A stretch of DNA of 64,000 nucleotides, from NCBI RefSeq assembly GCF_004116335.1, contig NZ_PDKN01000005.1, forward strand, positions 124,001-188,000, read 5' to 3'. How positions within the stretch are numbered: position 1 is the first letter of the stretch; each line of letters begins with the position of its first letter. This stretch comes from Candidatus Marinarcus aquaticus (lineage in GTDB: Bacteria > Campylobacterota > Campylobacteria > Campylobacterales > Arcobacteraceae). Positions 47,835-56,646 of the stretch are shown in pieces. The position numbers were made by a program, and so were the translations under genes. The notes beneath the pieces are model-generated. The model was not told the origin of the DNA, did no database searches, and saw only the letters and a list, made by a program, of their open reading frames with translations.

Positions 47835-48995
47835 CTAAAATGTTTTAGCAATAATATTTAAGTATTTTTTAAGTCTTGTGACAGGCAATGCAACGTTGAG
47901 TCTGAAGTGCTTAGAGCCGTTTTTCCCGAATGTTAATCCATCATTTAAAGCTATTTTTGCCTCTTTTAAAAGTCGCTCTTTGATTTGCAAGTGTGTCAAA
48001 TCGTAACATGAAAAATCGAGCCAAAGTAAGTATGTGGCTTCAGGTTGAGAGAGTTTGATATTTGTATTTTTCAGTAACTCTTTTGTAACCAAAATATTTT
48101 GTAATAAGTACTCTTTGAGTTCCTTGACCCATTCTTGACCATACGTATAGGCTGCTTCCATGGCAATGGTTCCAAAAACATTAATTGAGCCAATTTCTCT
48201 TGCTTTAACCACTTCATCTAATTTGGTTTTGAGAGCTTCATTGCAGGTAATAGCATACGCAGCATTAAGCCCTGCAATATTAAAAGTTTTCCCTGCTGCA
48301 TTGAGAGTAACGGTGATATTGGCAATCTCTTTAGAGATACTTGCAAGGGGTGTGAAGGGTTTAAAAGTAATATCCGCATGAATTTCATCACTGATAATGG
48401 TGATGTTGTGTTCTAAACAGATTTTGGCAAGGGCTTCAAGCTCTTCTTTACTCCAAATACGTCCTACGGGGTTGTGCGGAGAACAGAGTGTGAATATTTT
48501 GGTTTTAGGGGTGATTTTAGATTTGAGATCTTCTAAATCCATGGTGTAGTAGCCATTTTGTTCTTTTAAAGGGTTATAGACAACTTTTCGTTTGTTGTGT
48601 TTGATACTTTGAAAGAGTGGAAAATAAACAGGCGTTTGTACGATGATTTCATCATTGACTTCACTGAAAGCTTCTAAAGCAGCACTGTAAGCAGGAACGA
48701 CTCCATTTAAAAAAGTCAGCCACTTCTTTTGAATTTTCCAACCATGCTGTGTTTGCATCCAGTTTACAACACTTTGTTGCAGACTCTCTGTAACAATCCC
48801 ATAACCATATACCGCATGATGTGCTCTTTTAATAATGGCATCATTGATAAATGCAGGGGTTTCAAAATCCATGTCTGCTACCCACATAGGAAAAGCATCA
48901 TTGACACCAAAATACTTCTCTAAACCATCATATTTGGCACATTGGGTATGGTTTCTGTTGACTTCTTTATCAAAACTGTACACTATTTGCTCCAT
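47835..48995 (-). CDS. ovoB: PLP-dependent beta-lyase, probable ovothiol sulfoxide lyase OvoB
   Basis: A 386-residue fold-type I PLP enzyme of the PatB/MalY group. The PLP lysine is Lys236 in NAAGKTFNIAGL; DMDFETP and SPHNPVGRIW are family motifs. By sequence alone it could be a cystathionine beta-lyase. It overlaps ovoA by 13 bases on the same strand, so the two are translationally coupled, which argues for OvoB, the lyase that cleaves the histidyl-cysteine sulfoxide into thiohistidine. Confidence 0.75.
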   Translation of the reverse strand: MEQIVYSFDKEVNRNHTQCAKYDGLEKYFGVNDAFPMWVADMDFETPAFINDAIIKRAHHAVYGYGIVTESLQQSVVNWMQTQHGWKIQKKWLTFLNGVVPAYSAALEAFSEVNDEIIVQTPVYFPLFQSIKHNKRKVVYNPLKEQNGYYTMDLEDLKSKITPKTKIFTLCSPHNPVGRIWSKEELEALAKICLEHNITIISDEIHADITFKPFTPLASISKEIANITVTLNAAGKTFNIAGLNAAYAITCNEALKTKLDEVVKAREIGSINVFGTIAMEAAYTYGQEWVKELKEYLLQNILVTKELLKNTNIKLSQPEATYLLWLDFSCYDLTHLQIKERLLKEAKIALNDGLTFGKNGSKHFRLNVALPVTRLKKYLNIIAKTF

Positions 48996-50842
48996 ACATT
49001 GTTTTCTATTTTGTGAAGTGTCAAAGATAATCTCTCTTCAATGAGTTTATCATCTTCGATATTTCGTCCTTGGATAACTAACAATCCACCACTGTTCAGA
49101 CGTGTTGGAATGTCACTTAAAAAGGCTTCAAGATTATAAAGCTCGTCAAAATCCGTGGTGATTAAAATAAGGTCATAGCCTTTAAAATGAGGTTTTAAAT
49201 TGCACCCATCCCCTTGCCAAAATTGGCAGTTGTGCACTACTTCTTGCTCTTTTTTAGCTTGCGCATTGAGGATGTTTCTGGCTGTAAAATCAATTCCTAC
49301 AATGTTTTTATACTCTTTTGCTAACTCAAATGCCGCCGTTCCATAATAACATCCCAAGTTCAAAGCTGAGTTTTTCTTAAAGGTTTTATTATAGTGTTGC
49401 ACTGTTTTAACAGCGAGTTTAAAGAAGTTGGCGTACTCATCCTCTTCAATGTTTGGTTTCACATCTGGTTTTTGATTGTATGAAGCTGGCACTTCCACAT
49501 ATCTGAATCCTGCATGTTGAGGGAAGTGTCGTCTGAAGGCATAACGAGAATCCTTCAGTGCTTCATTTCCGCATGAGATGTAAGAGCCCCCTTTAAAGAT
49601 GTTGTGTCGATTATCAAATGTGGGCACGGAGAAATCATCATACAAGGGGTGTACTTCAAACCCTTCAAAACCATCAATAGCGGTAGTAGTCCATTGCCAT
49701 ACATTTCCTATGACATCGTAAAAACCATTGAATTCAAACATATCCACAGGACACGATGACGTGAAATGCTCTAAGTTGATGTTTGCAGGTGCTTTTTTAC
49801 CCCATTGTGGTTCATCGGGTGTTTGTGTGTGTTCATGTAAGGCATGCCATAATGCTTCACTGGGTAGTGTGATGTTTTTATGCTCTTTTTTGCTCTTCCA
49901 GTTACAAAAAGCTTCTGCTTCTAAATAATTAACATCCACAGGCCAATTCAGTGGTAAATCAATGATATTGGTCATGGTTCGGTATTTAAAAGTTTCACCC
50001 TCTTTAATCCAAAAGGTTGGGTATTGCGCTTTTTGGTACTCTTTCCAACCTTTTCCCTCTTCACTCCAAAAGGCATCATTGCAGTATCCACCATCTTGAA
50101 TAAACTCTAAAAACTCACCGTTGCTCACCAGATATTTAGAGGCTTTAAAAGCAGGTGTGCTCTCTTGATACTCTCCATACTCATTGTCCCATCCATAATA
50201 AGCATTGCTTTTATCTTTTCCTAACGTGATATTCATACTTGGAACTTCTAATAGTTCGTTACTTAGATTTTTCCCATAGCTTGTACATTCAAGCCCAAAA
50301 GAGTTGGGCTTGACATACTTTATATCAAGTTGCCGGTGTAGCACGGATGAGGTCTCAATATGAATTTTTTCATGTTCAATTCCCATCATTACAACCCACA
50401 TGGGGTTATCCCAATCAATAGGAAGCGTGAAGGTGCAAGTTTGTATGTAGTTGCTGACAACCTCTTTAGCTTTTGTTCGGTAATCTCTGACTTCTTGAAC
50501 ACTTGGCCAAGCGTAGTTCTCTTTGTTTAAATCATCCCATGACATCTCATCCACCCCAATGGCAAACATGGATTCATATTTGGGATTAATACGTTCGGTG
50601 ATATACCCCCCTAAAATCATCTTATTGATATAAAAAGTTGCTGTGTGTCCATAATAAAAAATAAGTTGGTGTCGTAAAGGTTCGGGCTGTAAATAGAAAA
50701 CATCGTCATTGACAAACACATCATCAAAGAGTTTTTCAAAAGTTTCATAGGTTTTTAAAAAATAGTTTAAAATCTCTTTTCGTTTGCTTTCAACAGTGCC
50801 AGTAGATAAGTTAATATTACGCGTTATCAGTTCTTTATTCAT
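48983..50842 (-). CDS. ovoA: Ovothiol synthase OvoA (sulfoxide synthase plus methyltransferase)
   Basis: A 619-residue protein; the ATG at 50842 follows GAAGG. The N-terminal DinB-type domain supplies iron ligands His66, His157 and His161 (MGIEHEKIHIE), the spacing seen in EgtB-type enzymes. A central FGE-sulfatase domain contains NVWQWT, FKGGSYISC and RYAFRRHFPQHAGFRYV. The C-terminal domain (about 480-619) is a SAM methyltransferase (ALNLGCYYGTAAFELA). This three-part order is that of OvoA, which joins cysteine to histidine and later N-methylates the thiohistidine. Ovothiol is an antioxidant. EgtB would lack the C-terminal methyltransferase. Confidence 0.9.
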   Translation of the reverse strand: MNKELITRNINLSTGTVESKRKEILNYFLKTYETFEKLFDDVFVNDDVFYLQPEPLRHQLIFYYGHTATFYINKMILGGYITERINPKYESMFAIGVDEMSWDDLNKENYAWPSVQEVRDYRTKAKEVVSNYIQTCTFTLPIDWDNPMWVVMMGIEHEKIHIETSSVLHRQLDIKYVKPNSFGLECTSYGKNLSNELLEVPSMNITLGKDKSNAYYGWDNEYGEYQESTPAFKASKYLVSNGEFLEFIQDGGYCNDAFWSEEGKGWKEYQKAQYPTFWIKEGETFKYRTMTNIIDLPLNWPVDVNYLEAEAFCNWKSKKEHKNITLPSEALWHALHEHTQTPDEPQWGKKAPANINLEHFTSSCPVDMFEFNGFYDVIGNVWQWTTTAIDGFEGFEVHPLYDDFSVPTFDNRHNIFKGGSYISCGNEALKDSRYAFRRHFPQHAGFRYVEVPASYNQKPDVKPNIEEDEYANFFKLAVKTVQHYNKTFKKNSALNLGCYYGTAAFELAKEYKNIVGIDFTARNILNAQAKKEQEVVHNCQFWQGDGCNLKPHFKGYDLILITTDFDELYNLEAFLSDIPTRLNSGGLLVIQGRNIEDDKLIEERLSLTLHKIENNVWSK

Positions 50843-50975
50843 CACTTAGTACCTTCTTTTTTTCTCTTTATAATAATAGTTAAAAGAAACTTTTACTTAA
50901 GTAATAAAGCATATTAATTTGAAAATAAGCAACACTACGATACATAATAAGAAAACTTTTAACGAAAGGTATTTT

Positions 50976-54378: not shown

Positions 54379-56646
54379 CTATTCTGCTTTAACACTATTC
54401 TTCCCATGTCGTTTAACATAATACATCAATTCATCGACACGTTTTAACATGCTCTCTTGCGTATCATTGTCTTTAAAGTCAGTTACTCCAAAACTGCACG
54501 TCACTTGTTGACCAATTTTAAATTGATAGTTTTCAGTTAACTTTTTGAGGTGATTGGCCATGGTTTTTGCCTCTTCAAGATTGGTTTCTGGCAGTAAAAT
54601 CAGAAACTCTTCTCCTCCCCATCGTCCTAAATAATCGGTTGAACGAATATTGGTCTTGATGAGTTGACTTAAGTCTTGTAACACCGTGTCTGCAAGTGAG
54701 TGACCATGCACATCATTGATTTTTTTAAAGTCATCAATGTCGTAAAAAATGATGGAAAATGGTCGATCATATCGACTTGATAACTCGATCTTCTCTTTGA
54801 ATTTAGAGTCAATTTTTCGTCGATTGAATGTTTCAGTGAGTTTATCAATGGTAGCTGCATTATAGAGTTTTTGCTCCATGATTTTTCTTTTTTGTATCTC
54901 TTTTCTCAAACGCACATTATAAAACACCACCACACATAAAAAGAGTGTTAAAGGCAGACCAATTTTATACACCATGGTATAGTCCGTCGAGGTTTCATAA
55001 CGTACTTGAAAATATTTCTCTTCAATGGTTTTAATTTCATCTTTTGAAATTTTAGTAATGGCTTTGTCAATAATTGTCTTTAATGTGTGGTTATCGGGAT
55101 GGATCATATACCGTAATTCTTGACTGAACTCGGTTGTTCCAGAGATTTTAATGTTCGAAAACTGTTCCTCTTTGATATGGTAGATTAACACAGGCAAAAG
55201 TTCAATAGCACCATATGCATCTCCATTGGCAACGAGTTGTAGACCTGTTTTCATGCTGTTCACTTCAATAAAGTTAATATTGGGGTATTGAAGTTTAATG
55301 AGATTGTTGATGGATGCATTTTTTCGTATGACAATGGATTTGCCGCTGAGAATGTTGGTATTAAAAATAAATCCTTCATCGTTTCTTGTGGCAATGGCAT
55401 ATTTATAGCTTTGAATGGGTTCTGAAAAGAGCACATTTTTTTCATGAATATCATTTTGTGTTAAAGTCAATTTAACACTGTTGAGCTCTTTTTTGATTGT
55501 TTCTCGGCCATTTTTGTTGTTACGTATAGTTTTTGAATGAGCGTTTAAGAGCGTTTTATTCTGAATCAATGCCCAAAAATCTGCGGCAATACCATGATGA
55601 CCAAGATAGAATGGTTCAAACTCTTGTTTATAATAAATAAACTCATTGTGGGCAATATAATCGTTCTCTTTTTGAGTAAATATCACTAAGTTGGCATCAT
55701 AAATAAAGTTATCTAAATTAAAGCGGGTTTCATTTTTTGTAAAACCTAATAAAGAGTAGATTTTACCAATCTCTTCAATTTTGCTTTGAGAGAGATTCCC
55801 TAAATTTCCTTGTTCATATTCTGCTAAATCTTTGAGGGTATAGGCTTCGTAAATGAGCGCATCTAAACTTTTATTTTGCGTGTTGTATTTATGGTAGATG
55901 ATATTGATGGTTTCACCAATGTTTTCAAAAGCATATGTCCATCCTTTTAACACTGCTTCATGAAAGTTGTGCACATCTATGGGGTTGAGCATCAACTCTT
56001 TTTTAGAAGTAAAAAGAATGCCATCATAAAAATCAAAACCATAATCTTGTGGGTTTAATATGTTGTATGGAATATTTTTTGAATTTAAAATATAGGGTTC
56101 ATTAGAGAGGTAAGAACCCATGGCATCGGTTTTATCATTGAGTAAGTCAACCAGTTTGTATGTATGTGGTTGGAACGTGATATCTTTAAGTGATAAGCCT
56201 TTGCTTGCGGTCATAGCGTGAATAGCAACGGTGTTTTTAGCATCGGTTGTAAGCATCACTCGTTTGTTTTTTAAATCTTCTACATTTTTGATATGTTTTT
56301 CTTGTAAAGTCAGAAGTACCAATGGAGAGTGTTGAAAGATTGCACTGAGTGCAACAATCTCTTCGCCGTTGAGTCTGTCTATTATAATCGAAGAACGTCC
56401 TACTGCATAAGTTGACTTTTGAGTGAGCACATCTTGTACTAAATCAACGCTGTTGTTCATCTCTTTAAAGTGTACGTCTAAACCGTACTCTTTAAAATAC
56501 CCTTTCTCTTTGGCAATATAATAACCTGCAAACTGAAATTGATGCAACCATGAAAGTTGCACTGAGATTTTTCTCAAAGGTTCATGTGCTTGCAGTTGAG
56601 TGAGGAACAATAAAAAAATGATTTGTATAAAAAATAATTGTCTCAT
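54379..56646 (-). CDS. Diguanylate cyclase with two periplasmic solute-binding modules
   Basis: A 755-residue membrane protein. After a signal segment come an NMT1/THI5-like solute-binding domain (about 25-290; LSWLHQFQFAGYYIAKEKGYF) and a second SBP_bac_3-like domain (about 335-555). A helix (about 563-583) leads to a GGDEF domain with GGEEF (677-681) and an I-site RSTD five residues before it, so it should make cyclic di-GMP with feedback inhibition. It lies 37 bases downstream of fbpC on the same strand and could be co-transcribed with the iron transporter. The ligand is unknown. Confidence 0.85.
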   Translation of the reverse strand: MRQLFFIQIIFLLFLTQLQAHEPLRKISVQLSWLHQFQFAGYYIAKEKGYFKEYGLDVHFKEMNNSVDLVQDVLTQKSTYAVGRSSIIIDRLNGEEIVALSAIFQHSPLVLLTLQEKHIKNVEDLKNKRVMLTTDAKNTVAIHAMTASKGLSLKDITFQPHTYKLVDLLNDKTDAMGSYLSNEPYILNSKNIPYNILNPQDYGFDFYDGILFTSKKELMLNPIDVHNFHEAVLKGWTYAFENIGETINIIYHKYNTQNKSLDALIYEAYTLKDLAEYEQGNLGNLSQSKIEEIGKIYSLLGFTKNETRFNLDNFIYDANLVIFTQKENDYIAHNEFIYYKQEFEPFYLGHHGIAADFWALIQNKTLLNAHSKTIRNNKNGRETIKKELNSVKLTLTQNDIHEKNVLFSEPIQSYKYAIATRNDEGFIFNTNILSGKSIVIRKNASINNLIKLQYPNINFIEVNSMKTGLQLVANGDAYGAIELLPVLIYHIKEEQFSNIKISGTTEFSQELRYMIHPDNHTLKTIIDKAITKISKDEIKTIEEKYFQVRYETSTDYTMVYKIGLPLTLFLCVVVFYNVRLRKEIQKRKIMEQKLYNAATIDKLTETFNRRKIDSKFKEKIELSSRYDRPFSIIFYDIDDFKKINDVHGHSLADTVLQDLSQLIKTNIRSTDYLGRWGGEEFLILLPETNLEEAKTMANHLKKLTENYQFKIGQQVTCSFGVTDFKDNDTQESMLKRVDELMYYVKRHGKNSVKAE

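Follow-up and report, generated by a model that had tools for sequence, protein, structure and literature searches.

A two-gene ovothiol-pathway operon whose OvoA carries a reduced and probably non-methylating methyltransferase domain

The annotation of a gene as OvoA is easily taken to mean a capacity for making ovothiol A, and the question raised by the present locus is whether its two genes could complete that pathway on their own. The locus lies in a window of 64,000 nucleotides (the whole stretch of DNA analysed), for which an earlier note had described a two-gene operon, ovoA and ovoB, overlapping by 13 bases. Both minus-strand open reading frames were found exactly where the note had placed them. 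The ovoA gene (48983..50842; ATG at 50842, GTG at 50845 as an alternative start) encodes a short form of 619 amino acids, and ovoB (47835..48995) encodes a PatB-family PLP-dependent C-S lyase of 386 amino acids, assigned from TIGR04350, the structure 6qp3, and a lyase tree. The last 13 bases of ovoA, ATGGAGCAAATAG (48983..48995, minus strand), are also the first 13 of ovoB, and the overlap is the same or similar in relatives. The pair is located between nuoA, which is downstream on the same strand, and a divergent bioA. The gene order around ovoAB is the same in a genome of the same genus (G203), and in G441 the pair is flanked by nuo genes and a UbiD-family gene, bioA not lying between. Judged by sequence, the two genes form a real operon, dedicated to the synthesis of 5-thiohistidine, from which the antioxidant ovothiol is derived.

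A search for both genes in related genomes, which had been proposed as a check, found OvoA above the cut-off in 119 of the 397 genomes sampled from the phylum, and ovoB directly adjoined ovoA in 97 fetched loci from several phyla, mostly overlapping it by 4–22 bases, so that an overlap of this kind is ordinary. The statement that ovothiol is not widely reported in the phylum thus agrees with the literature but not with the genes, which are common. In a literature search that most subscription journals lay outside, nothing was found on ovothiol and Arcobacter, and ovothiol in this phylum was nearly absent (for Campylobacter, a review only).

Along OvoA, the Pfam domains are arranged in the order DinB_2, FGE-sulfatase, and methyltransferase. 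The first two folds constitute the sulfoxide-synthase part (residues 9–449; 49496..50818, minus strand), which passed the TIGR04344 model with 663.4 bits against a cut-off of 400. The best solved relative was the bifunctional OvoA_Th2 (8khq; TIGR04344 and TIGR04345) with 685 bits, as compared with 342 bits for EgtB-IV. The three iron-binding histidines that had been proposed were borne out by the alignment: H66 (50645..50647, minus strand), together with H157 and H161 of the H157-x3-H161 motif (50360..50374, minus strand), were invariant in 44 sequences and aligned with 8khq, and they form the predicted iron site. The AlphaFold2 model of OvoA had a mean pLDDT of 91 and a pTM of 0.83, and its comparison with 8khq gave a whole-model Z of 57 and an rmsd of 14.3 over both domains; since the latter value is large, either the relative placement of the two domains differs or it is uncertain. 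The EgtB-IV sulfoxide synthase (8vig, 8vih) shares the fold and the iron site with 42% identity, but the window protein scored approximately twice as high on the OvoA model and 8khq. An EgtB identity was rejected (TIGR03440, 153 bits, far below the cut-off of 360), and the SenA score was likewise far below its cut-off. The model and the family scores support the assignment of this half as a canonical 5-histidylcysteine sulfoxide synthase. A separate observation concerns the genome G234, which contains a full OvoA and also a second sulfoxide-synthase gene (L120:3241-4614, 457 amino acids). Against the OvoA model its product scored 355 bits, short of the cut-off of 400; its best matches were EgtB-IV structures, and it may therefore be an EgtB-IV-like enzyme.

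The second gene had been described as a PLP beta-lyase, and OvoB indeed passed the PatB C-S lyase model TIGR04350 with 466 bits (cut-off 340). It matched the family and 6qp3 along its full length and kept the KTFNIAGL context of the PLP lysine, presumed from its family and from alignment with PatB structures to be K236 (within GKTFNIAGL; 48288..48290, minus strand). The PatB family is broad, and OvoB is tied to ovothiol by its operon and by co-occurrence. OvoB could in principle have a housekeeping function, for instance that of a cystathionine beta-lyase, and be a mere neighbour of ovoA; it is the sole PatB of the window genome, and exactly one PatB was present in each of the 22 genomes tested, seven of which have no ovoA. 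Against this, the overlapping adjacency of ovoA and ovoB recurs over many loci, and in the lyase tree the enzymes of ovoA-bearing Arcobacteraceae, whether linked to ovoA or not, fell into the clade of the window enzyme (starred branch, 99), whereas the seven ovoA-less relatives carry a different lyase (starred, 100), a split seen even within genus g2. An O-acetylhomoserine sulfhydrylase-type gene is also present and would permit methionine synthesis without cystathionine. We regard a purely housekeeping OvoB as very improbable. The separation of the two kinds of lyase in the tree supports a pathway role and, with the recurrent adjacency, lends indirect support to the predicted action on 5-histidylcysteine sulfoxide, and OvoB, being the only PatB of the genome, may do both jobs.

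The METHYLTRANSFERASE half of OvoA, unlike the synthase half, departs from the family norm. The earlier note had credited OvoA with the full domain order; the order was confirmed but the completeness was not, as the fused methyltransferase failed TIGR04345 (108.5 bits; cut-off 170) and its match was split into two stretches. The remark that the protein is shorter than the 700–770 residues of other members was the right clue to this reduction, and OvoA_Th2, similar in the synthase part and the three histidines, has 728 residues, whereas the window OvoA ends in a shortened core. That core (residues 471–619; 48986..49432, minus strand) is a cap-less remnant as judged by TIGR04345, the model, 9bxl, and the invariant positions. 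Of 33 methyltransferase columns conserved to at least 95% in 178 full-length sequences, the ten-species clade of the window protein has kept 15 and lost 18, whole loops being among the losses. The retained residues (G497, C498, G501, F541, Q543, D545, N548, and others) belong mostly to the nucleotide-binding half, whereas the E-G loop, the serine and tryptophan of S-P-[FY]-T-W, W-x-GG, and the arginine of GCxxGR were gone. In the AlphaFold2 model the seven-strand Rossmann sheet was still complete, and the model, the comparison with 9bxl, and the alignment all showed a Rossmann core with its SAM motifs retained. Superposition on the OvoM structure 9bxl aligned 157 of 244 residues at 1.7 Å (Z 20.6), so approximately 87 OvoM residues have no counterpart in the remnant, and these likely formed the substrate pocket. 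The fused domain could thus hardly bind 5-thiohistidine, its core would probably still bind SAM, and the methylation step has very probably gone from the fused enzyme.

The short form is not an artefact, since it is common to ten Arcobacteraceae-like species, and an assembly error or a frameshift was ruled out on that ground. A dying pseudogene was likewise ruled out by purifying selection on the remnant, for which dN/dS was 0.17–0.24 in a codon comparison of within-clade pairs with unsaturated dS. The dN of the remnant was 1.4–2.6 times that of the synthase part, as compared with 0.7–1.4 times in full-length pairs, and 31 residues of the domain, including DFTARN and FWQGD-CNLK, were invariant in the clade. 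The remnant is therefore under constraint, although a weaker one than the full-length domain. The possibility exists that it is an active minimal 5-thiohistidine N-methyltransferase, so that ovoA and ovoB alone would give ovothiol A. The retained SAM-side motifs and complete core, the purifying selection, and the lack of another OvoM in most sister species would all fit such an enzyme, and a residual or altered methyltransferase activity is possible given the kept motifs and the conservation of the domain. We nevertheless find a minimal methyltransferase improbable, because the missing elements are conserved to at least 95% in the full-length sequences, the domain evolves faster relative to the synthase part, and an intact OvoM is encoded elsewhere in the window genome. 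The simplest reading of the constrained remnant is a structural or SAM-related role.

The claim of the earlier note that ovoA and ovoB together would make ovothiol A was consequently not upheld; with 18 of the 33 conserved positions lost, N-methylation would need the product of another gene. The window genome (G000, 20 contigs) contains one further TIGR04345 gene above the cut-off (294.8 bits), a stand-alone OvoM of 246 amino acids on contig C4 (164942-165655; ORF L153:8983-9723). It kept 29 of the 33 family invariants, and its best PDB match was the stand-alone OvoM 9bxl, with 241 bits over the whole length. In G203, OvoM was absent at the corresponding locus, where the flanking genes are approximately 115 bases apart; the gene has been either lost from G203 or acquired by G000. 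Stand-alone OvoM genes were also found in G441 and G417, each in a different neighbourhood, and the OvoA of G417 is devoid of any methyltransferase. Within family f1, which we infer to be Arcobacteraceae, a stand-alone OvoM accompanied a short or missing fused domain in 3 of 11 genomes and a full one in none of 68 (p 0.002, uncorrected for relatedness among the genomes, several of which are drafts). The thrE genes beside OvoM were considered as a dedicated ovothiol exporter, but this idea gained no specific support, since thrE also occurs in G203, which has no OvoM, and in G008, which has no ovoA. G453 was dismissed as a further stand-alone OvoM; its ovoA and methyltransferase each abut the end of a contig and resemble two pieces of a single interrupted gene.

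We consider it probable that OvoA and OvoB yield 5-thiohistidine, that ovothiol A arises from this by the action of OvoM in trans, and that most short-form relatives stop at 5-thiohistidine. The iron site of OvoA would couple histidine and cysteine with O2 to give 5-histidylcysteine sulfoxide, which OvoB would split to 5-thiohistidine. The fused methyltransferase, reduced to a probably SAM-binding Rossmann core, would hardly take part in the next step; selection keeps it, and it may serve OvoA structurally or in regulation. In the window genome, 5-thiohistidine would then probably be N-methylated by the separate OvoM. Most sister species combine the short form with the lack of an OvoM, and for these 5-thiohistidine should be the last product: of the 11 f1 genomes whose fused domain is short or missing, 8 yielded no OvoM (several of them drafts), and ovothiol A can therefore not be regarded as the clade's general product. 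A variant of this scheme is possible but on the unlikely side, namely that the fused module binds SAM without methylating 5-thiohistidine and instead controls or scaffolds the synthase or methylates another substrate, 5-thiohistidine being the end product in most species and some regaining ovothiol through OvoM in trans.

It is also conceivable that the end product in the window genome itself is 5-thiohistidine or another derivative, and that OvoM is unrelated or unused. The C4 gene lies on another contig without a link to ovoA and could hence serve another purpose, and most genomes whose fused domain is short or missing yielded no OvoM. N-acetyl-5-thiohistidine is a known product, as in Proteiniphilum, and in Bacteroidota a truncated OvoA occurs with a 5-thiohistidine N-acetyltransferase (PMC12631010). 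The Bacteroidota enzyme lacks the methyltransferase and so resembles the window OvoA, which is predicted to have no working one, but the latter keeps a constrained remnant, and no acetyltransferase gene was found next to ovoAB in the neighbourhood of the operon, the region searched. As the window genome has a full OvoM, we judge an unmethylated or acetylated end product unlikely, and methylation by OvoM in trans remains the preferred reading.

In the synthase-part tree, the window protein grouped with L032 and L249 (starred, 99), inside a set of 18 (starred, 98) that also contains full-length enzymes of family f10, by inference Sulfurospirillum-like. The starred branches of this tree force at least six changes for the label 'short' and at least two for 'none', indicating that domain reduction happened more than once. 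In the OvoM tree, which like the synthase-part tree came from a quick search, the stand-alone OvoM proteins of G000 and G441 were sisters (starred, 96) and lay near the fused domains of family f1 with moderate support (84–89). Because the trees place them apart, the synthase and OvoM activities of the window genome seem to be of different origins. An OvoM as a separate protein is already known in the phylum from the solved enzyme of Sulfuricurvum sp. STB_99 (PDB 9bxl, 9bxm, 9bxn), and OvoA without a methyltransferase is known as well. The C4 protein matches the Sulfuricurvum OvoM along its entire length but is placed away from the Sulfuricurvum type (starred, 99), and it therefore looks like a second, separate origin.

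In the present case, a seemingly bifunctional enzyme probably cannot methylate, and the methylation step is encoded on another contig in the window genome, whereas most short-form relatives yielded no gene for it. It is thus likely that several lineages naturally stop at unmethylated 5-thiohistidine, which would constitute a natural experiment on the purpose of the ovothiol N-methyl group.

Other degrees and arrangements of the methyltransferase were seen in the sample. The OvoA proteins at L049 (G345) and L053 (G297) have 670 amino acids, and their methyltransferase matches the model only to approximately position 185 of 242 and still passes the cut-off, representing another degree of C-terminal loss. 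In eight genomes of genus g48, family f7 (L063-L070), OvoA has approximately 470–490 amino acids and the methyltransferase domain is absent; a stand-alone OvoM was present in only two of these eight. The stand-alone OvoM gene of G389 (L155:7890-9738) adjoins an ADP-ribosylglycohydrolase-family gene, and in G176 (L154:7891-9732) OvoM forms the end of a longer, 613-amino-acid ORF that also includes an ADP-ribosylglycohydrolase-family part. Elsewhere in the window, positions 54379-56646 (minus strand) encode a protein of 755 amino acids whose N-terminal part is substrate-binding-like and whose C-terminus carries a GGDEF diguanylate cyclase domain.
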